A stretch of DNA of 64,000 bases from the NCBI RefSeq assembly GCF_000746025.2, contig NZ_CP045798.1:3331501-3395500 (forward strand), in the 5' to 3' direction. Shown here in pieces: positions 4,017 through 23,132 of this stretch. Source of the stretch: Thermanaerosceptrum fracticalcis. Lineage in GTDB: Bacteria; Bacillota; Peptococcia; DRI-13. The translations under genes were made by a program, and so were the position numbers. Every line of letters starts with the position of its first letter. Position 1 is the first letter of the stretch. The notes under the pieces were generated by a model that was given only the letters and a program-made list of their open reading frames with translations, was not told where the DNA came from and did not search any database.

Positions 4017-5666
4017 GGGCTTGCTAACGGAAAGAAAAATTCAGTAATTACAAGGGTTTGAGGGCTCTTTCGTCAAAATTTAGTGCATGGAAAAACGGAT
4101 ATTCCCCCTTAAAACCGTGCACTTGGAGGCGATAAGATGTACCGCAAACCGAAACCTCAGCTAACAATCGATGATTTTATTCTCCCATTTTCCGGCAAAC
4201 TTGATGCGGAAAATCGCTGGGTTCAATTAGCAAAGATTATTCCTTGGGATGAATTAGAAAAGGACTATGCCTTCCTGTTTCCAAGTGACCGGGGGAATGT
4301 GGCCGCACCTGTCCGCATGGCGTTGGGTTCATTGATTATTCAGACTCGCTGCGGCTATACAGACCGAGAATTGGTCCAGCAGATCACTGAAAATCCCTAT
4401 CTCCAATATTTCATCGGCCTCAAGGAATACCAGGTGACTCCACCGTTTACTCCAGTAGCGTTAGTCAAATTCCGCAAGCGTTTTAAAAACGAGCGTCTGG
4501 CTAGAATCAACGAGCAGATTGCCTTGGCACAGCAACAAGCAGCGGATAAAACCAGTGAAACCAAGGATGATGATCACAACGATCCTCAAGGCGGTTCTGG
4601 CAGTTCAGATACAGAAACTCCAGCGGATCATCCAGTAAGTTCAGAATCTCCAGCCAACCAGGGCACGCTCATTCTCGATGCCACCTGCATCCCAGCTGAC
4701 ATCAAATATCCAACTGATCTGGGCTTGCTCAATGAAGCCCGTGAAAAGCTAGAAGAGATCATCGACACCCTTTATGAAGCCAACGGCAAACAGGGCAAAA
4801 AGCCGAGAACCTATCGTCAAAAAGCACGAAAGGCCTATCTGAGTGTTTCTAAACAGCGCAGCCCAAGAAGAATCCAGCTGCGTCAGGGTATTAAGCGTCA
4901 ATTGCAGTATTGCAAACGGAACCTTCGCACTGTAGACCGGATGTTGGAAGACAACCCCGCAGGGATGGAAGCCTTAAGCCGAAGACAAGCTCGGCTATTG
5001 AAAACCATCCGCATAGTGATTGAACAGCAGGAAACAATGTACAAAGCCAAAAGCCACCAAGTCGCAGACAGGATCGTCAGCCTTCATTAGCCGCATGTTC
5101 GGCCGATAGTGAGAGGAAAAGTGAGTGCGAGCGTCGAGCTCGGGGCGAAAGTCGCCATCAGCATTGAAAACGGGATTTGTCGCCTTGAAAAGCTATCCTG
5201 GGATGCTTATAACGAAGCCGGAACACTGATTGAAAGCGTAGAGCGCTACAAGGAGCGCAATGGAGTTTACCCCGAAGCCGTTCTGGCTGACCGAATATAC
5301 CGCAATCGTGAGAATCTAGCCTATTGCAAAGCGCACAACATCCGGCTCAGCGGGCCGAAGCTGGGACGGCCTGCAGCAAATGCCCAGATTCAGAAGGCAG
5401 AGAAAGCCTTGGAACGATTGGATGCCCGTATGCGCAATGCAGTCGAAGGGAAGTTTGGCGAAGGTAAACGAAAATACGGGCTTGATCGTATCTATGCCAA
5501 GTTAAAAGAGACGGCAGAGAGTATGATTGCTCTGCACTTTTTGGTGATGAACTTAGAGCGTCAGCTCAGAGTTCTTTTTGCCCAAATTTTATGGAGACTC
5601 TTAAGAAGACATCATGAAGTGATTAGTGCTTAGATTACTAAAAAACAGGGTTTGGCTAGCAAGCCC
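4017..5666 (+). mobile_element. IS1182-like insertion sequence
   Basis: The element is bounded by imperfect inverted repeats. The left end is GGGCTTGCTAACGG from 4017 and the right end is GGCTAGCAAGCCC ending at 5666, so 11 of the first 12 bases match. Its length of about 1.65 kb and single DUF772-type transposase fit the IS1182/IS5-like group. I see no clear target-site duplication (ATTC to the left, TAGA to the right). The copy is probably immobile because its transposase has an internal stop. Confidence 0.75.
4137..5633 (+). pseudogene. IS1182-like DDE transposase interrupted by an amber codon
   Basis: The product begins with a DUF772-type N-terminal domain (RMALGSLIIQTRCGYTDREL) followed by a DDE-type catalytic region (LILDATCIPADIKYP). 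One TAG at 5088-5090 splits the frame. The reading frame is otherwise continuous from 4137 to 5633, across RIVSLH-stop-PHVRPIVRGK. Relatives usually have glutamine at this position, so CAG to TAG is the simplest explanation. The downstream part includes VLADRIYRNREN. Nothing indicates readthrough, and this is best called a nonsense-mutated transposase. Confidence 0.85.
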
Positions 5667-6543: not shown

Positions 6544-8520
6544 ATGGACATCGAGGAAAGGAACAGGGCTATTTTAAAAGCGTGGGAAGACTTCCTGGCC
6601 CAAGATGAAATCGATCCCGGAGTTGTCAGAAAGATGGTGGCTGATTCATGGAGACGCTGCAAAAATTTGGGGATATCGCCATACATCAAAAAGGGGAAAA
6701 TCATTTTAAAAGGTGAGTTACTCCTTAATAGAATCAAACAAAAGCAAGAGTTGATCGATGTCGCGCTCGGTGTAATGGACAATTTGTACGAATCTGTGAA
6801 GGGCTCGGGCTTTGTCGTCATTCTCTGTGATGAAGAAGGTTATCTGCTTCATGTGGTCGGTGATAAGCACGTCTTAGAATCGGCCAGCATCATAAATTTT
6901 ATGCCCGGAGCAAATTGGAGTGAGGAGTCTATCGGAACTAACGCCATTGGAACAGCCCTGGCCACAGACAGTCCGGTTCAACTCTTTGCTTCTGAACATT
7001 ACTGTGTGGGATGTAAAAGCTGGACTTGCTCCGCTGTACCGCTCCATGATGAAGAAGGGAAGAAGATTGGGGTCCTAAACTTATCCGGACACTATACCAA
7101 AGTAAACCAGCATACTCTGGGTATGGCGGTAGCCGCTGCTAATGCTATCGAAAATCTCCTGCGGCTCAAAAAAATATCCGACAATTTGAGTGTCACTAAC
7201 AATTTGTTGAATGCTATGATGGATTCCATGACGGACGGGGTCATTGCGACCGACACCGCCGGAAATATTACCAAGTTTAATTGGGCGGTTGAAGATATTC
7301 TAGGGATGACCGCAGACAAGATTGTCAATAAAAACATTAATGCTTTCATCTGTGATCAACTGGATTTTAATAATATTGTCCATGCCAACCTTTTTAATAC
7401 AGATCAGGAGGTATATCTCAGAACCGGCCGCGGCAAGATTCACTGTACGATGACTTTCCGCAACATTAAAGTTAACGGTCAAGTGACAGGAGTATTGTTT
7501 ATTCTCAAAAAGATGGAGAACGTTAAAAAGCTAGTGCATAAGATCGTCGGGGCCCGAGCAAGGTTTACTTTTCAGGATCTAAAAGGTAATAATCAACGTT
7601 TCCAAGAGAGCATCGAAATGGCGAGAAGGGCGGCCCTTGGTACATCCACCGTATTATTGTTGGGTGAGAGTGGCACAGGCAAAGAAATGTTTGCCCAAGC
7701 CATCCATAATGCAAGCCGGCGGCGCCAGGGCCCTTTTGTCGATCTCAATTGCGGAGCCATACCCCGAGAGTTGATTGGCAGCGAGTTATTTGGCTACTCG
7801 GCCGGGGCATTCACAGGTGCCAAAAAGGAGGGTAATCCTGGCAAGTTTGAGTTAGCTGACGGGGGTACCCTTTTCTTGGACGAGATTGGGGATATGCCCC
7901 TCGACATGCAGGTCAATTTGTTACGGGTTCTGGAAGAAAAACGTGTCCGGCGCATCGGTGGACAAACCGACATACTGGTTGATGTCCGAGTTATCGCGGC
8001 TACTAATAGAAATTTGCTGGAAATGGTTCAGAACGGGAAGTTTAGGGAAGATTTGTACTATCGCTTAAATGTATTAACAATACAGATGATTCCCCTTCGG
8101 AACCGCAAGGACGACCTTCCGACCCTGATTTGGTTTTTTATCGAAAAGTACAATCGCCTAATGGGTACGGAGGTGAAACGTATTGACGGTGAATTTCTCC
8201 GGATTTTGAGTGAGTATGATTGGCCAGGTAATGTCCGTGAGTTAGAAAATGTGATCGAGCGTGCAATCAATCTGGCGTTGGGCGAGACCCTTACTCCGGA
8301 CCTGTTACCTCCGGAAATTACTGGCTCCTTTAACAAGACCATAATTACCGAGGCAAACCGTAACAATTTCTGCTTGGAATTAGCGGCTGTGGAGAAACAA
8401 CTTATCCTACAGGTATTAAACGAATGTAACAATAATATGACCCAAGCAGCCAAGCGCCTGGGAATTGGGAGGACAACTTTGTATCGAAGGATTAAGGAAT
8501 ATAAAGATATGAAGCTGTAA
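6544..8520 (+). CDS. acoR: AcoR, sigma-54-dependent activator of the acetoin operon
   Basis: The 658-aa product is an enhancer-binding protein with three parts. An N-terminal GAF-like sensor holds cysteines in [17 protein letters not shown], and a PAS-like segment sits around residues 230-330. Next come an AAA+ domain with Walker A GESGTGKE, the sigma-54 contact loop GAFTGAKK and Walker [12 protein letters not shown], and a C-terminal Fis-type helix-turn-helix ([20 protein letters not shown]). The ATG follows GGGGG/AGGAG. It lies directly upstream of acoABCL and reads in the same direction, with a sigma-54 promoter and two dyad sites between them. Named by architecture plus context; the inducer is probably acetoin but is not shown by sequence. 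Confidence 0.9.
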
Positions 8521-8583
8521 GAAAGTGACTGCACACGCGGTAGAAAAGAAACAAAGTATTCTGTCTAAAGCAATAGTTGTGAA

Positions 8584-8633
8584 TGTTTCTAACTGAAACA
8601 ATATTTCATAATGGAACGTTTCAAAGTGAAACA
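8584..8633 (+). promoter_or_regulatory. Pair of AcoR-type upstream activator sites
   Basis: Two inverted repeats of the form (T/C)GTTTC-N5-GAAACA lie at 8584-8600 and 8617-8633. Their centres are 33 bp apart, about three helical turns, and 150-200 bp upstream of the sigma-54 promoter. This arrangement is typical for enhancer sites of AAA+ activators. Assignment to AcoR is inferred from position. Confidence 0.7.
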
Positions 8634-8670
8634 ATCATTGTAAGACAACTCTAGAAACCATTTGATTATG

Positions 8671-8838: not shown

Positions 8839-9813
8839 ATGGCAAAGTTGACCAAGGAAGAATTAATCAAAATGTATTCCCAAATGGTACTTATCCGGCT
8901 TTTTGAAAGCAAAATTGGAGAGATCTACGGCAAAGGCGCAATCCCAGGCGAAATGCACCTCTCTAATGGTCAAGAGGCTATCGCGGTAGGTGTCTGCGCC
9001 AACTTGCGGGCGGATGACGCTGTTTCCAGTACGCACCGCGCTCATGGACACATGATAGCCAAGGGTGTCGATCTGAAAAAGATGACGGCGGAATTGTTTG
9101 GCCGCAAAACCGGGCTTTGCAAGGGCAAAGGCGGACACATGCACCTATTTGATCCATCAATAAAATTTGGCTGCGGTGGAATTGTTGGGGCTGGTATGCC
9201 TTTGGCAGTTGGCTCCGGCTTGGCCTTTAAACGGAAAGGTCTGGATAGTGTATCGGTAGTTTTCTTTGGGGATGGGGCTGCTAACCAAGGAACATTCCAT
9301 GAAAGTTTAAACTTAGCTGCCTTGTGGAAGCTGCCGGTAATTTTTGTCTGCGAGGACAATCGTTACGGAATTTCCGTTACCAAAGAGATGTCAACCGCCA
9401 TCAACAGTAATGCGGATCGGGCAGTAAGTTATGGTATTCCTGGGGTTGCTGCCGATGGTAACGATGTGGCCGAGGTATATCAGGTTACCAAAGCTGCTGT
9501 GGAAAGGGCGCGGAAGGGAGAAGGACCGACGTTGCTTGAATTTACAACCTACCGTCTAATGGGGCACTTCGAGGGTGACCCGGAGGTGTACAAGCCCAAA
9601 GAAGAACAAGAGGAAGCCCTGAGAAATGAGCCGATCATCCGCCTGGAGAAGGTTCTCACTAAAGAATACGGGGTTAACGTTGAAGAGTTGGTGAAAATCA
9701 AAGAGGCACGCCAAGCGGAGATTGCGGAGGCCATAAAATTTGCGGAAACTTCACCGTGGCCCAAACCGGAAGAAGCCTTAGAAGATGTTTTCGTTGAAGG
9801 AGGTGTCAGATAA
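8839..9813 (+). CDS. acoA: Acetoin dehydrogenase E1 alpha subunit (TPP-dependent)
   Basis: The 324-aa product is the alpha chain of a thiamine-diphosphate-dependent 2-oxo acid/acetoin dehydrogenase E1, which cleaves acetoin to acetaldehyde plus an acetyl group passed to lipoyl-E2. The TPP motif is visible as FFGDGAANQG followed by the ENRYG-type segment CEDNRYGIS, and the substrate-channel segment is HRAHGHMIAKG. The length is typical. AGGAGG precedes the ATG. The gene follows the sigma-54 promoter, and its last base overlaps the acoB start (TAATG). A pyruvate dehydrogenase alpha chain is the alternative; the upstream acoR favours acetoin. Confidence 0.9.
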   Translation: MAKLTKEELIKMYSQMVLIRLFESKIGEIYGKGAIPGEMHLSNGQEAIAVGVCANLRADDAVSSTHRAHGHMIAKGVDLKKMTAELFGRKTGLCKGKGGHMHLFDPSIKFGCGGIVGAGMPLAVGSGLAFKRKGLDSVSVVFFGDGAANQGTFHESLNLAALWKLPVIFVCEDNRYGISVTKEMSTAINSNADRAVSYGIPGVAADGNDVAEVYQVTKAAVERARKGEGPTLLEFTTYRLMGHFEGDPEVYKPKEEQEEALRNEPIIRLEKVLTKEYGVNVEELVKIKEARQAEIAEAIKFAETSPWPKPEEALEDVFVEGGVR

Positions 9814-10814
9814 TGAGCCGGATATTGACCTTTGCCGAGGCGATTAGTGAAGCTATGGCCCAAGAGATGGAAAGGGATGAACGGGTATTTCTCATGGGCG
9901 AGGATGTCGGCCGCTACGGGGGAATCTTTGGCACGGATGTGGGGCTCTATGACAAGTTTGGTCCGAACCGTGTCATCGATACACCGATCTCGGAATCAGC
10001 TTTTATTGGCGCCGGCATAGGAGCAGCCATGGAAGGGTTGCGCCCGATTGTCGAGCTGATGTTTGTGGACTTTTTCGGCGTAGCCATGGACCAGATTTTT
10101 AACCACATGGCGAAAATAACCTATATGTCTGGTGGCAACTTCTCCGTTCCTATGGTTTTGCGGACAGCGATCGGAGGCGGTTACGGCGATGCAGCCCAGC
10201 ATTCCCAAATCCTATATTCGTTATTTGCCCATGTACCGGGAATCAAAGTTGTGGTTCCGTCGACTCCTTATGATGCCAAGGGGTTACTGATTAGTTCGAT
10301 CCGCGATGATAATCCGGTCATGTTCTTCGAACATAAGCTTTTGGCCGGCCTGGATTGGCTGCCGTTTGGAGTGAAAGGGGAAGTGCCGGAAGAACCCTAC
10401 ACCATTCCGCTCGGTAAAGCCGACATCAAGCGCTCCGGAAAAGATTTGACGATCGTGACTGCCTCCTTAATGGTTCATCGGGCGCTAGCAGCTGCTGAAA
10501 AATTGAGTGCTGAGGGTATTGAAGCGGAAATTATCGATCTGCGTTCCCTCGTGCCTCTCGATAAGGAAACAATCCTCACCTCGGTAGCTAAGACGCACCG
10601 CCTCCTGATTGTTGATGAAGATTATCTAAGTTACGGCATGAGCGGCGAGATTGCGGCTGTGGTCGCCGAAGAAGGTCTTTATGATCTGGAGGCTCCAATC
10701 AAACGCTTAGCTGTTCCCGATGTGCCGATTCCGTTTAGCCATCCGATGGAAGATTTCGTTCTTCCCAATGAAAAGAAAATCTACGCCGCGGCCAAAGCTC
10801 TTGTTCAAGAGTAA
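9813..10814 (+). CDS. acoB: Acetoin dehydrogenase E1 beta subunit
   Basis: The 333-aa product has the transketolase pyrimidine-binding domain (MGEDVGRYGGIFG, DTPISESAF) and the C-terminal transketolase domain (VTASLMVHRALAAAEKL, EIIDLRSLVPLD). With AcoA it forms the E1 heterotetramer. Translation is coupled to acoA through a one-base overlap. The length is normal and no damage is visible. A short degenerate copy of its 3' end is found after lipA. Confidence 0.92.
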   Translation: MSRILTFAEAISEAMAQEMERDERVFLMGEDVGRYGGIFGTDVGLYDKFGPNRVIDTPISESAFIGAGIGAAMEGLRPIVELMFVDFFGVAMDQIFNHMAKITYMSGGNFSVPMVLRTAIGGGYGDAAQHSQILYSLFAHVPGIKVVVPSTPYDAKGLLISSIRDDNPVMFFEHKLLAGLDWLPFGVKGEVPEEPYTIPLGKADIKRSGKDLTIVTASLMVHRALAAAEKLSAEGIEAEIIDLRSLVPLDKETILTSVAKTHRLLIVDEDYLSYGMSGEIAAVVAEEGLYDLEAPIKRLAVPDVPIPFSHPMEDFVLPNEKKIYAAAKALVQE

Positions 10815-10914
10815 CAGTAAACAGCTTGGGTAACAGTTGCCTACAGGTCTCGTAAAGGATGTAGCAATAAATCATAGTGTTTTAGGACTTATCAACAGGA
10901 AAGAGAAAGAACGG

Positions 10915-10952
10915 GATACCTCCAACGGCAAGTAGTTGGCGTTGGAGGTATC
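10915..10952 (+). promoter_or_regulatory. Intercistronic hairpin between acoB and acoC
   Basis: A 13-bp perfect stem, GATACCTCCAACG with CGTTGGAGGTATC, encloses about 12 nt. There is no T tract after it, so it is not an ordinary terminator. It lies in the only long gap (159 bp) of the operon. A diverged copy after lipA keeps the pairing, with a compensating change at the second base pair. It may be an RNA stability or processing element that sets E1:E2 ratios. Confidence 0.6.
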
Positions 10953-10973
10953 TTAAGCAGAAAGAAAAAGGGG

Positions 10974-12281
10974 TTGACATCTTTGAGCATTAAGATTGAG
11001 ATGCCAAAACTGGCCGCTACGATGGAAGAGGGAATAATCTCCCGGTGGTATAAAAAGGCCGGGGATAAAGTAAAAAAAGGGGAACCTCTGGTCGAAGTAC
11101 TCACAGGCAAGATTAACGCCGAAGTAGAATCACCGGCGGCAGGGATTTTGGAGAAGATCGTAGCGATGGACGGGGCGCTGGTACCTGTCGGAGAGGCTAT
11201 CGCCTTTTTAACAGAAGCCGCGGAACCGGAGAGTGCTGCTAAAGAGCCGGTTCAGAGTCTAGCGGACGTCGGAGTTCAGGAAGGACAGAAGACGATTGTT
11301 GCCACCCCAAGGGTGAAAAAACTGGCCAAAGAGCTGGGTATCGATTTGGCCGCTGTTTCAGGAAGCGGCCCGAACGGGCGTATTACTGAAGAGGATCTTG
11401 TTAAGTATCAAGAACTAGAAGATAGCGCCAAACAACAGAAGCTGACGGCTACCGCCCGCAAGATAGCGGAAGCCGAGGGTGTTTCCTTAGCTGATGTGCA
11501 AGGCAGCGGAGTATCCGGACGTATTCAGAAGGAAGACGTCCTGCGCAAACTCGAGGAGAAAACTCCCGAAAAGGCAGGGCATCTGGCCATGGACGACTTT
11601 ACTGTTCTTCCTCTAGCCGGATTGCGCAAGGTAATCGGCGAAAACATGTCGGCCAGCGCCTTTAAGGCTCCTCATGTCACCCTCACCACTGAAGTCGTGA
11701 TGGACAAAGCCGTCCAGCTGCGCAATGAATTAAAGGAAAAGTACAGGAAAGAAGCAAAAATTACTTTCACCGATTTTATCAATGCTATCGTGATTAAGGT
11801 CTTGCAGGAAATGCCGGAGGTAAATTGCACTCTGGAAGGTGACGAAATCAGGCAGTGGCACAAAGTAAACTTGGCCATAGCTGTAGCCAGGGGAAAGGGC
11901 TTAATCGTCCCGGTACTGAAGAATGCGGAACGTAAATCCCTGGTTGAGATTTCTCAAGAGTCCGCTGATCTCGTGCAACGGGCCAGGGCTGACCGCTTGA
12001 CGTTGGATGAAATACAAGGTGGAACCTTTACGGTCAGCAACTTGGGTATGTATGACATTGATGGTTTCACGCCGATCATCAATCCGCCCCAAGGGGCAAT
12101 TCTCGGGGTGGGACGGATTCTGGACCGTCCGGTGGCCGTCAAGCAAGAGGTTGTTGTCAAGCCGACTATGGTCCTCAGTATCTCTTTTGATCATAGGGTG
12201 ATGGATGGTGACGTAGCAGCCAGGTTCCTGAAGAGATTGAAGTATTTGTTGGAAAATCCCTACCAACCTGTGGTCGAGTAG
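10974..12281 (+). CDS. acoC: Dihydrolipoamide acetyltransferase (E2) of the acetoin dehydrogenase complex
   Basis: The 435-aa E2 has one N-terminal lipoyl domain (lysine in EVLTGKINAEVES, about residue 45). Two consecutive peripheral-subunit-binding domains follow (ATPRVKKLAKELGIDL with GPNGRITEEDL, and ATARKIAEAEGVSL with GVSGRIQKEDV), then the catalytic domain ending in SFDHRVMDGD with the acyltransferase His and Asp. It transfers the acetyl group to CoA. The start is uncertain: TTG at 10974, or TTG at 10983 nearer the lipoyl fold; no strong Shine-Dalgarno is seen except AAAAGGGG. The tandem binding domains are worth noting. The gene is followed by acoL after 18 bp. Confidence 0.9.
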   Translation: MTSLSIKIEMPKLAATMEEGIISRWYKKAGDKVKKGEPLVEVLTGKINAEVESPAAGILEKIVAMDGALVPVGEAIAFLTEAAEPESAAKEPVQSLADVGVQEGQKTIVATPRVKKLAKELGIDLAAVSGSGPNGRITEEDLVKYQELEDSAKQQKLTATARKIAEAEGVSLADVQGSGVSGRIQKEDVLRKLEEKTPEKAGHLAMDDFTVLPLAGLRKVIGENMSASAFKAPHVTLTTEVVMDKAVQLRNELKEKYRKEAKITFTDFINAIVIKVLQEMPEVNCTLEGDEIRQWHKVNLAIAVARGKGLIVPVLKNAERKSLVEISQESADLVQRARADRLTLDEIQGGTFTVSNLGMYDIDGFTPIINPPQGAILGVGRILDRPVAVKQEVVVKPTMVLSISFDHRVMDGDVAARFLKRLKYLLENPYQPVVE

Positions 12282-12299
12282 AGTTAGGAGGCAGTTGAC

Positions 12300-13703
12300 A
12301 TGGCAGAAAATATGATCAAGGCAGATCTGGCGATTATCGGTGGCGGACCAGGAGGTTATGTTGCTGCCATCAAAGGGGCTCAAATGGGAGCTCAGGTCGT
12401 TCTGATCGAAGAAGACCAATTAGGGGGTACATGCCTCAATCGGGGTTGTATTCCGACCAAGGCTTTGCTGGAAACAGCCCATGAATACAAAAAGCTGGAT
12501 TCTCTGTCTAAGCGGGGGATCAAGGTCACGGGAAAAGAACTGGACTGGAAACAGGCTTTGGCGCAAAAAGACAAAGCTGTTGCGACCTTGGTCGGAGGGG
12601 TCAGCTATCTGCTGCAACAGAACAAAGTAAAGGTACTAAAAGGGCATGGGCAATTTATAGATGCGCAGACCCTGCTTTGCCAACATAGTGACGGGACAAA
12701 GACCAAGATCCAAGCGGCAAAAATTATCATTGCCACGGGATCTAATCCCAAGAGAATCCCGGTTGAGGGTATTGACGGGAAGAGAATTTTGAGTAGTACC
12801 GAGTTGTTGAACATGCCAAGCATGCCGAACAGCTTGGCTATTATCGGGGCTGGTGCTGTTGGTGTAGAATTTGCCTCGATTTTCCATGCGCTGGGGGTTA
12901 AAGTGACCATAATCGAAGCCATGCCCGGTTTGTTGCCAACAATGGATATGGACTTGGGTAGTTTCTTACTTAAAAAGTTTAGCAAAGATGGGATAAGGGT
13001 TGAAGTAAACGCCTACGTACAAGGAATGCGGGATAATGGCAGTAGCGAGGAAATAAGGATTAAGAACCTCGACGGGCAAGAGCAAACGATCGAGGCGGAA
13101 TTCGTACTGCTGGCTGCCGGTCGCCAAGCTAATACTGCGGGCTTAAACTTAGAGGCGGTTGGTCTGAAGTTAAATGCCGGTTTTCTTCCGGTCAACGCGT
13201 ATATGGAAACAGAGATCTCCGGCATTTATGCGATTGGGGACGTAACCGGAGGCATCATGCTAGCCCATGTTGCTTCCCGGGAAGGCATCGTCGCGGTCGA
13301 GAATGCGCTTGGTCACAAGATTAAGATAGACTACCGCAGTGTACCGGCGTGCATCTATACGCATCCGGAAATTGCTTCTGTCGGTCTAACGGAGGCCGAA
13401 GCGAGCAAGCGCTATGACGTTGCCGTGCACCGCTTTCCTTTTCAAGCGAACGGCCGGGCGGTGGCGGTTGATGAAGCGGAAGGCTTCGTGAAACTCGTCT
13501 CCGATAAGAAATACGGTGAAATTCTGGGAATTCACATGGCTGGGCCGATGGTTACAGAACTTGTGGGCGAAGCAGGCTTAGCCATAACCTTGGAGTCCAC
13601 GGTGGAGGAACTGGCTAATACTATTCATGCTCATCCTACGTTCAATGAAGTGTTGATGGAGGTTGCGCACGCGGCAACAGGTCAGCCAATCCATAATGTC
13701 TAG
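12300..13703 (+). CDS. acoL: Dihydrolipoamide dehydrogenase (E3)
   Basis: The 467-aa flavoprotein has the N-terminal FAD motif (GGGPGGYVAAIKGAQMG), the redox disulfide GGTCLNRGCIPTK, an NAD-binding motif (GAGAVGVEFASIF) and a C-terminal dimerisation domain with HAHPTFNE, which holds the catalytic His. It reoxidises the dihydrolipoyl E2 with NAD. There is no fused lipoyl domain. TAGGAGG lies upstream of the ATG. It is the last structural subunit of the complex and is followed immediately by lipoate biosynthesis genes. Confidence 0.92.
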   Translation: MAENMIKADLAIIGGGPGGYVAAIKGAQMGAQVVLIEEDQLGGTCLNRGCIPTKALLETAHEYKKLDSLSKRGIKVTGKELDWKQALAQKDKAVATLVGGVSYLLQQNKVKVLKGHGQFIDAQTLLCQHSDGTKTKIQAAKIIIATGSNPKRIPVEGIDGKRILSSTELLNMPSMPNSLAIIGAGAVGVEFASIFHALGVKVTIIEAMPGLLPTMDMDLGSFLLKKFSKDGIRVEVNAYVQGMRDNGSSEEIRIKNLDGQEQTIEAEFVLLAAGRQANTAGLNLEAVGLKLNAGFLPVNAYMETEISGIYAIGDVTGGIMLAHVASREGIVAVENALGHKIKIDYRSVPACIYTHPEIASVGLTEAEASKRYDVAVHRFPFQANGRAVAVDEAEGFVKLVSDKKYGEILGIHMAGPMVTELVGEAGLAITLESTVEELANTIHAHPTFNEVLMEVAHAATGQPIHNV

Positions 13704-13713
13704 AGGTGATGGT

Positions 13714-14400
13714 GTGCAACTTAATCTGCTTAAGAGTTACGGGATGGATTACCGGCAGGCTTATCAGTTACAGCGCGAGCTTTTGACTTTGCGTCAAAAA
13801 GGGGAGATTGAAGATACCCTCTTTTTGACATCGCATCCCCATGTTATCACCATTGGCCGGGCGGGAAGCAGAGACAACCTGCTGGTGAGTGAAGCATTTC
13901 TTCAGACACGCAGGATCGAGGTGGTTCCCATCGAGAGAGGTGGTGATATCACCTATCATGGCCCCGGGCAGATCGTAGGGTATCCCATTCTTGACTTGGG
14001 CCGTTTAGGGAAAGATCTTCATCTTTATGTCTATAAGCTCGAACAGATGATCATTGATTTATTAAAGGAGTATGAAGTTAACGCCGGTAGAATAGAGGGT
14101 TTGACCGGAGTTTGGGTAGGCAATGAGAAAATTACAGCGATCGGGATTGCGGTGAGCAAGTGGGTGACTTGGCATGGTTTTGCTTTAAATATTGCTCCAA
14201 GCCTGTCCTATTTTAACTATATAATACCGTGTGGGATCTCGGACAAAGGGGTTACTTCCCTGCAAAAAATCCTTGGACGCGAGATAAGTAATGAAGAGGT
14301 TGAAAGAAAACTGATCGAAAAATTTAGGCATCAGTTCGGGTATAGCCGGGTTGAGGAGATTAAAGCTGGCATGCTGGGCAAGGAGGGCAAAAGTGCATGA
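13714..14400 (+). CDS. lipB: LipB octanoyltransferase
   Basis: The product transfers octanoyl groups from acyl carrier protein to lipoyl domains. The diagnostic motif GGDITYHGPGQIVGYPILDL and the catalytic PCGISDKGVTSL region (Cys and Lys) are present. I prefer the GTG at 13714, preceded by AGAGGTG. An in-frame ATG at 13696, overlapping the acoL stop, would add six residues. The gene ends in an ATGA overlap with lipA. Its place inside the aco operon makes sense, because E2 cannot work until lipoylated. Confidence 0.9.
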   Translation: MQLNLLKSYGMDYRQAYQLQRELLTLRQKGEIEDTLFLTSHPHVITIGRAGSRDNLLVSEAFLQTRRIEVVPIERGGDITYHGPGQIVGYPILDLGRLGKDLHLYVYKLEQMIIDLLKEYEVNAGRIEGLTGVWVGNEKITAIGIAVSKWVTWHGFALNIAPSLSYFNYIIPCGISDKGVTSLQKILGREISNEEVERKLIEKFRHQFGYSRVEEIKAGMLGKEGKSA

Positions 14401-15254
14401 CTCTAGCTCCGTGGTTGAAGATCGGAACACCTGATCAGCAAAAACTCAGGGACATGCTCGGATTGCTGGCTTCGTTAAATGTAAATACGATTTGTACCAG
14501 CGCAAAATGTCCCAACGCCGGGGAATGTTTTGCCCAGGGCACAGCAACCTTCCTCATCTTGGGACCTAATTGCACACGTAATTGCCGGTTTTGTGCGGTT
14601 AACCATGGTCGGTTGGCAGAACCTGACCCGTTGGAACCGGCTAAAGTCGCTCAGGCTGTGCAGATCCTGGATTTAAAATATGTAGTAATTACCTCTGTAA
14701 CCCGTGACGACCTGCCGGATTATGGAGCGGGCCAGTTTGCCGCTGTTATTCGGGAAATTAAAGCTCTGCACGAAGATACTTTAGTTGAAGTACTGATTCC
14801 GGACTTAACTGGGGAGGAAAAGGCTCTGGCACTTATTGTGCAGGCCAGGCCGGATGTTCTAGGACATAACTTAGAGACCGTCCCGAGGCTTTACGCTAAG
14901 GTTAGGCCACAAGCGTCTTACCGGCAATCTCTGAGAGTACTGAAGGCCGTCAAAGAGATGAAGCCGGGGATGCTCACGAAGAGCAGTTTAATGTTAGGAC
15001 TCGGCGAGACGGAAGGAGAGCTTAGAGAGGTATTTCAGGATTTAAAAGAAGTGGATTGTGACATTCTGACTCTCGGGCAGTATTTGCAACCTACCCCTCA
15101 ACAGCTACCGGTAGAAAGGTATGTAACTCCAGAGGAATTTAGCTATTACCGAGAAATAGCCTTAAGTTTGGGAATTAGAGAAGTTTACGCCGGGCCGTTA
15201 GTGAGAAGCTCGTACCATGCGCGCGAGGTCTTTAGGACATTAACCGATGTGTAA
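14397..15254 (+). CDS. lipA: LipA lipoyl synthase
   Basis: The 285-aa radical-SAM enzyme inserts two sulfur atoms into protein-bound octanoyl groups. The auxiliary cluster cysteines lie in CTSAKCPNAGECF and the radical-SAM cluster in CTRNCRFC; the C-terminal RSSYHA motif carries the conserved serine. The length is normal. It is translationally coupled to lipB (ATGA) and is the last intact gene of the aco-lip operon. Confidence 0.93.
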   Translation: MTLAPWLKIGTPDQQKLRDMLGLLASLNVNTICTSAKCPNAGECFAQGTATFLILGPNCTRNCRFCAVNHGRLAEPDPLEPAKVAQAVQILDLKYVVITSVTRDDLPDYGAGQFAAVIREIKALHEDTLVEVLIPDLTGEEKALALIVQARPDVLGHNLETVPRLYAKVRPQASYRQSLRVLKAVKEMKPGMLTKSSLMLGLGETEGELREVFQDLKEVDCDILTLGQYLQPTPQQLPVERYVTPEEFSYYREIALSLGIREVYAGPLVRSSYHAREVFRTLTDV

Positions 15255-15271
15255 GCGGCACTAATAGGATG

Positions 15272-15440
15272 CCGGTAGCCAAGACACACCGCCTGCAATT
15301 GTTAAACGAGTGCAATTGATTATAGCGCGTGTTGGACTTCTGTAACAGTAAGAAGGGGTACCTCCAACGACAAGTAGCTATCGCTGGAGGTACCTTAAGC
15401 ACCAAGGAAAAGGGTTTAAATTTTTGTAACTTAAGATTCT
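15272..15440 (+). pseudogene. Decayed duplicate of the acoB 3' end / acoC 5' junction
   Basis: Bases 15272-15300 (CGGTAGCCAAGACACACCGC) match the acoB stretch near 10577 that encodes VAKTHRLLIV. Bases 15325-15440 then match the acoB-acoC gap and the first bases of acoC (compare 10870-11000). They include GGACTT, the AACAG/AAGAA stretch, the hairpin at 15357-15394 and TTAAGATT. Most of the acoB 3' end between these two blocks is missing. No protein can be made. This is the scar of an ancient duplication of the operon or of part of it. Confidence 0.65.
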
Positions 15441-15513
15441 GCCGCCTATGCTGACTAAGCAGGATTTTTTCGTAAAACGTAGAAATAATACTAATCTCTA
15501 TTGTGATGATGAT

Positions 15514-15590
15514 AACATTCACGTTCGCTTGATGTTATGAAACCATTTGAGTAAAAACATTTACGCTCGTGTGATAATGCGAAACGATTA
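15514..15590 (+). promoter_or_regulatory. Tandem operator-like repeats upstream of the flavin oxidoreductase
   Basis: A roughly 34-bp unit occurs twice, starting at 15514 (AACATTCACGTTCGC) and 15556 (AACATTTACGCTCGT). The copies are 42 bp apart, four helical turns. The first contains inverted arms ATAACAT and ATGTTAT. It lies just before the ribosome-binding site of the next gene, so it is a plausible regulator site. The regulator is unknown. Confidence 0.5.
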
Positions 15591-15608
15591 CAGGATGGAG
15601 GATATAAA

Positions 15609-17552
15609 ATGAATGCATTTACCTTTGAAAAAATCTTAGAACCAATTCAAATTGGGCCAATGAAAGTAAGAAACAGGATTGTTATGCCTCCTATGGTGAC
15701 AAATTATGCTGCTACTGATGGGGCAGTTACCGAACGTTTTAAGGCCTATCATCAGGCTAGAGCTAAGGGCGGAGTCGGCTTTATTATTGTTGAAGCGGCA
15801 TATGTCCAGCCGAATGGTAAAGGTTTTCAAAACCAAGTGGGGATTTACAAAGATGAATTAATATCCGGTTTGAGGAACTTGACTGATGCAGTGCATAGCT
15901 ATGGAGCCAAAATTGCCGTGCAACTTTATCATGCCGGGAGACAGACAACTTCCAAAGTTACCGGAATGAGTATAGTTGCTCCTTCGCCTATTCCTTGTCC
16001 GGTAAAGCAAGAAATGCCCAAGGAATTATCATTGGAGGAAATAAAAGAGTTGGTAGAAGCTTTCGGACAAGCTGCGCGCCGTGCTAAGGAGGCAGGATTT
16101 GATGCGGTTGAGATCCATGGCGGCCATGGGTATCTAGTTAATCAATTCTTGTCGCCCTATAGCAACAAGCGAACCGACGAGTACGGCGGAACTTTCGAAA
16201 ACAGGATGAAATTCCCCCTGGAGGTTATCCAAAGGATAAGAAAAGAAGTTGGGGAAAGCTTCCCGATTATCTACCGCATGAGTGCTGAAGAATATGTGGC
16301 TGGAGGACTTACCCTCGATGATACCACAGTGTTTGCTAGAAAGCTGGTGGAGGCAGGAATTGATGCCCTGCACATTTCCGGAGGGGTTTATGAGACATCG
16401 GCCATGATTATTCAGCCGGCAGCTATTCCCCAAGGTTGTTTCGTAGAAAATGCTGCTGCTATCAAGAAAGCCATTAACGGAGAGGTACCCGTGCTTGTTG
16501 CCGGCCGTATCAAAGATCCGGTTATGGCTGAACAAATCATCCGGGAAGGCAAAGCTGATCTGGTATCGATGGGAAGGGCCTTGTTAGCCGATCCGGAATT
16601 ACCCAAAAAAGTGGCTGAAGGTAAGGCTGAAACGATAAGGAAATGCATCGCCTGTAACCAGGGTTGTATTGATCGCTTGTTCCTGGACATTGACATTGCC
16701 TGCCTGGCTAACGCAGCGACCGGACATGAAACGGAATTTAACACAGAAATTCCAGCAACGAATAAAAAGAAAGTGTTAGTGATTGGTGGTGGCCCCGGTG
16801 GATTAGAAGCAGCCAGGGTAGCAGCTTTGCGGGGACATGAAGTGATTCTTTATGAAAAGCAAGCGGAATTAGGTGGGCAACTGCGGATTGCTGCAGTACC
16901 GCCTTATAAAGAAGAGATAAATGATTTGGTGAATTATCTTATTGACCAAGTAGAGAAATCCGGTGTTGTGATTGAAAAAGGCAAGGAAGCAGATATAAAG
17001 ATTGTTCAAGAGCTTAAACCGGATGTGGTAATCGTAGCCACAGGATCTGAACCAATAATACCAAAGATTCCCGGGGTTGAGCAGAAAAAGGTTGTTACGG
17101 CGCATGAGGTTTTGATGGGTTCAGCTTCTGTTGGTGAAAAAGTAGTGGTTGTTGGCGGCGGGCTTGTAGGTTGCGAAACCGCAGAATATCTGGCAGAACA
17201 AGGCAAACAGGTTACAGTGGTGGAAATGCTGGACGATGTTGCGGTAGATGTTGGAGCCCTCACTAGAGCTCTATTACTAAATAGGATGGCTGAGAACAAA
17301 ATCCAGGTACTAACTAAGAGCAAAGTCCGAGAAATAACAGTAGATGGAGTTATTATAGAAAAAGAAGAAGGAACGGAAGAAATAACCGGCATAGATACTG
17401 TAGTAATCGCAGTTGGTTCTAAGTCCAAGAATGATTTATTTATGCTTATAGAAGGAGAAGGAATACCTGTTTTTGCTATCGGAGACTGTGTCAAACCCCG
17501 AAGAATTATAGAGGCCATTCACGAAGGCTTTCGTCGAGCTTATAGCTTGTAA
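15609..17552 (+). CDS. NADH:flavin oxidoreductase / 2,4-dienoyl-CoA reductase-like enzyme
   Basis: The 647-aa product belongs to the old-yellow-enzyme family with a fused FAD/NAD(P)-binding half. The N-terminal FMN barrel has VEIHGGHGYLVNQFLSPYSN with the usual HxxH-like substrate residues. A 4Fe-4S ligand set CIACNQGC...C follows near residues 345-365, then GGGPGGLEAARVAALRGHEV and GGGLVGCETAEYL nucleotide-binding motifs. Members reduce enoate or dienoyl-CoA C=C bonds; the substrate here cannot be told. A good GGAGG precedes the ATG. It is monocistronic, with its own operator repeats and terminator. Confidence 0.88.
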   Translation: MNAFTFEKILEPIQIGPMKVRNRIVMPPMVTNYAATDGAVTERFKAYHQARAKGGVGFIIVEAAYVQPNGKGFQNQVGIYKDELISGLRNLTDAVHSYGAKIAVQLYHAGRQTTSKVTGMSIVAPSPIPCPVKQEMPKELSLEEIKELVEAFGQAARRAKEAGFDAVEIHGGHGYLVNQFLSPYSNKRTDEYGGTFENRMKFPLEVIQRIRKEVGESFPIIYRMSAEEYVAGGLTLDDTTVFARKLVEAGIDALHISGGVYETSAMIIQPAAIPQGCFVENAAAIKKAINGEVPVLVAGRIKDPVMAEQIIREGKADLVSMGRALLADPELPKKVAEGKAETIRKCIACNQGCIDRLFLDIDIACLANAATGHETEFNTEIPATNKKKVLVIGGGPGGLEAARVAALRGHEVILYEKQAELGGQLRIAAVPPYKEEINDLVNYLIDQVEKSGVVIEKGKEADIKIVQELKPDVVIVATGSEPIIPKIPGVEQKKVVTAHEVLMGSASVGEKVVVVGGGLVGCETAEYLAEQGKQVTVVEMLDDVAVDVGALTRALLLNRMAENKIQVLTKSKVREITVDGVIIEKEEGTEEITGIDTVVIAVGSKSKNDLFMLIEGEGIPVFAIGDCVKPRRIIEAIHEGFRRAYSL

Positions 17553-20983: not shown

Positions 20984-22330
20984 ATGAGAGACCAAAAAAA
21001 GGCCGAGGACGTTGCTACTCAACGAGTACAACTCATATCCCCACTTCTAACTGAAGGGTTGGACCCTGCCAAAGCCAGACAGATTAAAACCCAAATTTGC
21101 GAGCAGGCTGGAATTTCCGAACGTACTCTGCGCAGATATCTGTCAGAGTATAAGACACATGGCTTTGCCGGACTTAAGCCCAAAGGTAAAGCTCAGAGCA
21201 GAAGCGAAGATGCCATTCCGCCAAACATCCTGGAACAGGCCATATTATTGCGACGAGAGGTTCCAAAGCGCAGTGTGGCCCAAATCATACAGATTCTAGA
21301 ATGGGAAGGTCTGGCCCAGCCGGGTCAAATTAAGCGCAGTACACTGCAAGAGAAGCTAGCCGAACGTGGATACAGCGCCAGGCATATGCAGATGTATATG
21401 AGTACCGGTGTTGCTACTCGGCGGTATCAGCAGAAGTATCGTAACAAGCTTTGGCATTCCGACATTAAGTATGGACCCTACTTACCTATCGGCATAGATG
21501 GTACCAAGAAGCAGGTATACTTAGTAACATTTTTTGATGATTGCACTAGGTTTGTTCTTCACGGTCAGTTCTATCCAACCTTGGATCAGGTCATCGTTGA
21601 AGACTGTTTCCGTCAGGCTATCTTAAAATATGGAGTGCCGGAGGCAGTGTTCTTCGATAACGGCAGCCAGTACCGGACAAAATGGATGGGACGGGCCTGC
21701 GCCAAGATGGGGATTAGGCTACTATTTGCTAGGCCATATTCCCCAGAATCGACTGGGAAAGTGGAACGTTTTAACCGGGTGGTCGATTCCTTTCTCAGTG
21801 AAGTTGCCTTGGAGAAACCTCAGTCATTAGACAAACTCAATGAGCTGTTCTGGGTGTGGTTAGAGGAGTGTTATCAAAACAAGCCCCATTCTGCATTGGA
21901 AGGCAAAGCTAGCCCCGCCAGTGCCTATCGTAGCGACAAAAAAGCCCTAAAATTCCTGGACCCGGAAACAGTAGCCAACGCCTTTCTTCATTGCGAAGAA
22001 CGCAAAGTTGATAAAGCTGGATGTATCAGCTTCCAGGGGAAAAAGTATGAGGTCGGGCTTAGTTTCATCGGGTGTACCGTAGATGTCATCTATGATCCCG
22101 CTGACATTACTGAACTGACCATAGAATATGAGGGGCATACCCCTTGGAAGGCCCGGGAACTCGTTATCGGAGAAATGGTAGGCCAGCGACCTAAGCTACC
22201 TGAACATCTAAGGACACAACCAGCCGAATCCTCAAGACTCCTGGCTGCAGCTCTTGAGAAGAATCAGCAGAGAATAGAACAACAGGCTCCTGCCATTTCC
22301 TACAGAACCGTAAGAAAGGCAGGGAACTAA
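20984..22330 (+). CDS. DDE transposase (TniA/IS481-like integrase core)
   Basis: The 448-aa product has an N-terminal helix-turn-helix (ISERTLRRYLSEYKTHG) and an rve integrase core with the catalytic aspartates in WHSDIKYGPYL and VFFDNGSQY and the glutamate in STGKVERFNR. A C-terminal Mu-like beta domain follows (KVDKAGCISFQGKKYEV). GGGAGG lies upstream. The stop is two bases before the start of the partner ATPase. It appears intact, so this copy may still be active if the DUF6431 defect is tolerated. Confidence 0.88.
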   Translation: MRDQKKAEDVATQRVQLISPLLTEGLDPAKARQIKTQICEQAGISERTLRRYLSEYKTHGFAGLKPKGKAQSRSEDAIPPNILEQAILLRREVPKRSVAQIIQILEWEGLAQPGQIKRSTLQEKLAERGYSARHMQMYMSTGVATRRYQQKYRNKLWHSDIKYGPYLPIGIDGTKKQVYLVTFFDDCTRFVLHGQFYPTLDQVIVEDCFRQAILKYGVPEAVFFDNGSQYRTKWMGRACAKMGIRLLFARPYSPESTGKVERFNRVVDSFLSEVALEKPQSLDKLNELFWVWLEECYQNKPHSALEGKASPASAYRSDKKALKFLDPETVANAFLHCEERKVDKAGCISFQGKKYEVGLSFIGCTVDVIYDPADITELTIEYEGHTPWKARELVIGEMVGQRPKLPEHLRTQPAESSRLLAAALEKNQQRIEQQAPAISYRTVRKAGN

Positions 22331-22331
22331 G

Positions 22332-23132
22332 ATGTTTGAACCTTTCTACGGGCTATCTCAAACTCCGTTTTCACGGGATATCCCAACAAACGAGTTGTAT
22401 CAGTCACTCATGCTGGAAGAGACGTTAGGTCGCCTGGAATATGCTGCCCAGCGTCAGTTGTTCGCCGTTGTTACCGGTGACTGCGGGACTGGCAAGACTA
22501 CTACTATCCGTCGATTCAGGGATTCCTTAGACCCTGCTAAATTCATGGTGCTGTACCTGGCGGATTCCAAGCTGACACCCAGACATTTCTACAAGGGTCT
22601 CTTGGAGCAGCTAGGCTGTGAATCCAAATTTTATCGTGGTGATGCCAAGCGTCAACTGCATAGAGAAATCGAGCTTATGCGGGGTATCCAGCATCTTCAG
22701 CCTGTTGTCATCGTAGATGAAGCACATCTTCTGGACCGGGAGATGCTGGAGGAGGTCAGATTCCTTCTCAATTTCAAGATGGATGCGCAAAGTCCCATGG
22801 CTCTTATCCTCGTCGGTCAGACTGAACTTTGGGAGAAGTTTAAGCTTCAGGCCTATGCCGCTATCCGGCAACGCATTGATCTCCAGTGTAAACTGCCCCA
22901 CTTGGACCGCGCCCAGGTAGGGGATTATGTGAAACGACATCTTGCTTACGCTGGTGCCGACCATGATATATTTTCTGATGGTGCTTTGGATGAGATATTT
23001 CGGTTCTCTAGTGGTGTCCCTAGGCTAGTGAACAAGGTCTGTACTCACTGCTTGCTATATGGGGCACAGAATGGCCGCCGGATCATCGATGACCATATGG
23101 TTAAGTTGGTTATCCAGGGAGAATTGTCATGA
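22332..23132 (+). CDS. ExeA/TniB-like AAA+ transposition ATPase
   Basis: The 266-aa ATPase has Walker A GDCGTGKTT, Walker B VVIVDEAHLL and sensor segment MALILVGQTEL. The start MFEPFYGLSQTPFSRDIP is typical of ExeA-type ATPases paired with DDE transposases. By analogy with TnsC or MuB it would choose the target and activate the transposase. It is coupled to the upstream gene and overlaps the next start by four bases (ATGA). Confidence 0.85.
   Translation: MFEPFYGLSQTPFSRDIPTNELYQSLMLEETLGRLEYAAQRQLFAVVTGDCGTGKTTTIRRFRDSLDPAKFMVLYLADSKLTPRHFYKGLLEQLGCESKFYRGDAKRQLHREIELMRGIQHLQPVVIVDEAHLLDREMLEEVRFLLNFKMDAQSPMALILVGQTELWEKFKLQAYAAIRQRIDLQCKLPHLDRAQVGDYVKRHLAYAGADHDIFSDGALDEIFRFSSGVPRLVNKVCTHCLLYGAQNGRRIIDDHMVKLVIQGELS

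Follow-up and report, generated by a model that had tools for sequence, protein, structure and literature searches.

A probable remnant of a second acoB-acoC junction behind lipA in Thermanaerosceptrum fracticalcis

The window analysed here, 64,000 nucleotides of the Thermanaerosceptrum fracticalcis genome (NZ_CP045798.1, positions 3,331,501 to 3,395,500), contains a complete acoRABCL-lipBA operon, of which the part from acoA to lipA occupies 8839-15254. Between lipA and the next gene lies a spacer of 354 bases (15255-15608). A preliminary description proposed that much of this spacer, 15272-15440, is the fossil of a second acoB-acoC junction, left when a tandem duplication of the operon, or of a part of it, collapsed. 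The question is whether this resemblance is real and, if so, how a piece of the middle of an operon came to stand behind its end. The genes concerned are as follows.

6544-8520, plus strand: gene for an AcoR-like sigma-54 enhancer-binding regulator; matches sigma-54 activators, below equivalog cut-offs
8839-9813, plus strand: acoA, E1 alpha; best match pyruvate dehydrogenase (PDH) E1 alpha, below the equivalog cut-off
9813-10814, plus strand: acoB, E1 beta
10974-12281, plus strand: acoC, E2; open reading frame from TTG, downstream starts possible
12300-13703, plus strand: acoL, dihydrolipoyl dehydrogenase (E3); TIGR01350 above cut-off
13708-14400, plus strand: lipB, octanoyltransferase; TIGR00214 above cut-off
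14397-15254, plus strand: lipA, lipoyl synthase; TIGR00510 above cut-off, stop at 15254
15609-17552: gene encoding a BaiCD/OYE-type flavin Fe-S oxidoreductase, the next gene after lipA

The acetoin dehydrogenase operon acoABCL of Bacillus subtilis and Clostridium is controlled by AcoR and sigma-54 (PMC6615313). The operon in the window resembles it in the order E1 alpha, E1 beta, E2, E3, in the regulator of the sigma-54 activator class encoded upstream, and in a -24/-12-like sequence before acoA, TTGGCACGAAATATGCA, which was read by eye. It differs in having lipB and lipA appended. Its E1 alpha and E2 do not reach the NCBIfam equivalog cut-offs, and the naming as acetoin dehydrogenase is a prediction from gene order and regulator class. 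Two GTTTC-N-GAAAC palindromes, 33 nt apart, stand at 8581-8635 upstream of the promoter-like sequence and are candidate binding sites for the AcoR-like activator. Transposase genes are found on both sides of the operon region, at 4137-5633 and 20984-23132. The former is an IS transposase in two frames (a DUF772 part and a DDE part), probably a broken copy.

The sequence behind lipA aligns collinearly over some 180 bases, from 15273 to about 15453, with the active acoB-acoC junction at 10582-11012. The segments that correspond are given below.

10582-11012, plus strand: source segment, comprising the 3′ part of acoB, the acoB-acoC gap and the 5′ end of acoC
10914-10953, plus strand: active intercistronic stem-loop between acoB and acoC, near-perfect
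15273-15303, plus strand: remnant of acoB codons, (S)VAKTHRLLIV, 31 nt; counterpart 10582-10613
15304-15352, plus strand: left-gap remnant; counterpart about 10854-10901, with a deletion of ~240 nt at its left edge
15356-15395, plus strand: remnant stem-loop; counterpart 10914-10953
15394-15453, plus strand: right-gap remnant and probable first acoC codons; counterpart 10952-11012

The blocks keep the order of the source; a single internal deletion has removed about 240 nt, corresponding to 10614-10853. Their significance was judged piece by piece from the pairwise score against 2000 dinucleotide shuffles. None of the shuffles reached the real score for the acoB block (15270-15304; score 42, best shuffle 34), the left-gap block (15304-15352; 33 against 31) or the right-gap block (15393-15470; 50 against 46). 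The hairpin and its surroundings are 83% identical over 63 nt without gaps (10913-10975 vs. 15355-15417), and in a BLASTN comparison of the spacer with 10501-11060 the gap scored 74.3 bits and the acoB block 32.8 bits. The match to the VAKTHRLLIV codons and that to the gap with its hairpin, both claimed in the preliminary description, are thus confirmed, and its coordinates were about right. The left-gap block, which it had missed, is a third block and strengthens the case. The first acoC bases, which it had also included, stand on different ground: the acoC codons alone (15418-15475) were matched or beaten by 88 of the 2000 shuffles and are not significant by themselves, and the remnant is extended into acoC because of its collinearity.

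Within the acoB block the first three differences are synonymous (GCT/GCC, ACG/ACA, CTC/CTG), after which a 1-base deletion shifts the frame. With this deletion and that of ~240 nt, and with no aco open reading frame on the plus strand, the remnant has no intact reading frame and no coding role. Since the acoB differences before the frameshift are all synonymous, they hint that the copy may have been coding for some time, a weak hint drawn from three sites.

Dispersed repeats can take the form of such hairpins. The genome is a single contig of 3.8 Mb; the junction sequence was found at two places in it, both in this window, and a search of the whole genome for a third copy was negative. A pattern search of the genome for ACCTCCA-N6-24-TGGAGGT found one additional palindrome, the inner sequence of which is unrelated. 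A mobile hairpin element was therefore rejected, there being two copies genome-wide and none at unrelated loci. The matching blocks outside the hairpin and the shuffle results likewise refute chance similarity, and we give practically no weight to either explanation. An Rfam scan of 10500-15700 yielded no family at the gathering score.

The nearest operon was found in a Desulfosporosinus sp. MAG, GA_180221_E-2-1-MAG-50_16 (JAIMKP010000065.1; L012). Gene order is as in the window, including lipB-lipA behind acoL, and the acoB-acoC gap holds a stem-loop sharing the core GATACCTCCA...TGGAGGTATC. The encoded proteins are 94% (AcoB), 85% (AcoA), 74% (AcoC) and 74% (LipA) identical to those of the window; the higher value for AcoB indicates an unusually strong constraint on E1 beta. 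Because L012 has lipB and lipA in the same place, these genes are an ancestral part of the operon. They were not left between two copies, as had been supposed; the copy simply lies behind the operon. In L012 the operon is present once and the second junction is absent: lipA is followed by 65 nt of unrelated sequence and then, on the opposite strand, by a set of spore-germination-type genes. Unrelated sequence after lipA in a relative had been proposed as grounds for refuting the duplication; we read it as a sign of lineage-specificity, which leaves the duplication unrefuted. The second junction would have arisen in the lineage of the window or have been lost outside it.

Outside the hairpin, remnant and source differ by 0.25 substitutions per site, compared with 1.46 between the window and L012 at acoB four-fold sites. 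On this comparison the copy is probably younger than the split between the two lineages, and the duplication probably took place well after it, yet is old.

The operon is absent from one genome of the same genus (80% complete) and was missing from the other genomes searched in the order and class of the window and in the order of Desulfosporosinus. Plasmid and viral collections held nothing near, the best plasmid AcoB being 62% identical. Since almost the same operon occurs in one Desulfosporosinus MAG but is missing from these relatives, it probably moves between distant lineages by horizontal transfer. Inspection of relatives for tandem aco clusters gave a divided answer. Close tandem copies of this type of operon were found neither in the order or class of the window nor in the order of Desulfosporosinus. 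Genomes of the window's order do contain more distant aco-type clusters that are tandemly arranged or closely spaced (L126, L127, L128, L129), their pairs of AcoB being 53-79% identical, and for this reason operon-scale duplication is plausible for the family. Tandem acoAB(C)-acoAB clusters are seen in L127 (3109-8404) and L128 (2977-7533); the two AcoB copies of L128 are 79% identical.

Taken together, these results make it likely that 15273-15453 is what decay has left of a second copy comprising at least the acoB-acoC junction, the outcome of duplication and then deletion. This is the simplest reading because acoB codons, gap and hairpin follow one another in order directly behind the source operon. 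A direct tandem duplication would have joined sequence downstream of lipA to sequence within acoB or upstream of it. Deletions would then have removed almost the entire second copy, one of them inside the remnant (~240 nt) and one or more taking everything past the start of acoC. We infer that more than about 430 bp was duplicated, that the copy arose in tandem rather than as a short ectopic copy or from integrated related DNA, and that it was once functional. As to its extent, a decayed duplicate of the junction is well supported, while duplication of the whole operon, which the preliminary description had entertained, is no more than plausible, just ~430 bp of source (10582-11012) being witnessed. 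Remnants of acoA, acoL, lipB and lipA of a second copy were sought in 15466-15608, and none rose above shuffles; nor was an intact tandem copy found in relatives. A short match between the acoR-acoA gap and the tail of the spacer, GAAACCATTTGA (8654 and 15539), was rejected as no better than shuffles.

Other origins have to be weighed against tandem duplication. Another aco operon that differed slightly, for instance that of a relative, could have been integrated at the junction by homologous recombination in the manner of Campbell, the merodiploid being resolved later by deletion. The patchy distribution of an operon that is nevertheless nearly the same in a Desulfosporosinus MAG indicates that it travels, and the region is flanked by transposase genes. 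However, a divergence of 21% can build up in place, so a second donor is unneeded, and nothing else of a donor operon is left; we consider such an integration unlikely. It is doubtful, too, that a few hundred bases of the junction were copied ectopically, as by templated repair at a break, and that there never was a whole second operon. Such an event would account for the fact that bases 10582-11012 and nothing else are witnessed, but on its own gives little reason to expect the copy directly behind the operon of origin, and the changes in the acoB block, which look synonymous, hint that the copy was once coding.

Tandem duplication followed by deletion would explain how the sequence arose, and is compatible with a further proposal, that the stretch was kept for its stem-loop as a 3′ processing or stabilising structure at the end of the lipA mRNA, the rest being a relic. 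In the outer stem of 11 pairs pairing is kept, and the only two changes form one compensatory pair, A-U to G-C, compared with a difference of 21% in the flanks. The region folds with z = -3.8. The outer stem is followed by an A-C mismatch, which may be ancestral because L012 shares it. On the other side, the inner stem is partly lost, and the depletion of changes, two in about 24 stem bases against a background of 0.214, is weak (P about 0.09-0.1). As a sign of selection on the second stem-loop it is no more than suggestive, and selection could have acted only while a second operon was active. There is also no U-tract after the stem on the plus strand, where the tail reads CTTAAGCA, and the structure is not among the plus-strand terminators listed, so that an intrinsic terminator was not found at this stem-loop. 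The remnant stem-loop may serve as a 3′ end structure of the lip mRNA; that the stretch has been kept for this purpose seems improbable to us.

The active acoB-acoC gap folds with z = -3.4, and its stem-loop is conserved in L012 at 4140-4178. Most surveyed aco-type operons have short acoB-acoC gaps. Where the gap exceeds 45 nt, it often forms a strong stem-loop, distant phyla included. The z values range from -3.4 to -4.8 in the window, L012, L014, L019 and L021, and are weaker, -1.1 to -2.4, in six others. Besides those of the window and L012, the strong stem-loops between E1 beta and E2 are the following.

9563-9666 of L014
11003-11066 of L019
11000-11056 of L021

Across phyla these structures are alike in position and different in sequence. 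Terminator-like runs of T follow the gap stem-loops in some operons (L015, L016, L077). It is a reasonable guess that the recurring stem-loop is an element setting the expression of E1 against that of E2/E3. A bolder proposal, which we regard as improbable, is that the acoB-acoC stem-loop is a regulatory RNA setting E1 against E2, E3 and lipoylation expression, and that the copy after lipA, with its compensatory change, was kept to provide the same mRNA with its 3′ structure. If this were true, the distal segment of the operon would be bracketed by two matching hairpins, at 10914-10953 and 15356-15395. Neither an acoB-acoC stem-loop nor a remnant of this kind turned up in the literature searched.

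As a genomic fossil the remnant is real but of an ordinary kind, most likely the scar left by an old duplication that has been deleted for the most part. Like the pseudogene fragments that tandem gene or operon duplications leave in bacteria, it is short, collinear, frameshifted, internally deleted and placed behind its source operon; unlike them, it consists mostly of an intercistronic gap and a stem-loop rather than of a gene body. Short intergenic leftovers behind operons can thus bear witness to duplications of which no gene survives, and for this one a relative gives a rough date. The remnant also calls attention to the acoB-acoC hairpin, an intercistronic element conserved between two distant Firmicutes with this operon, the second copy of which is possibly still under selection.
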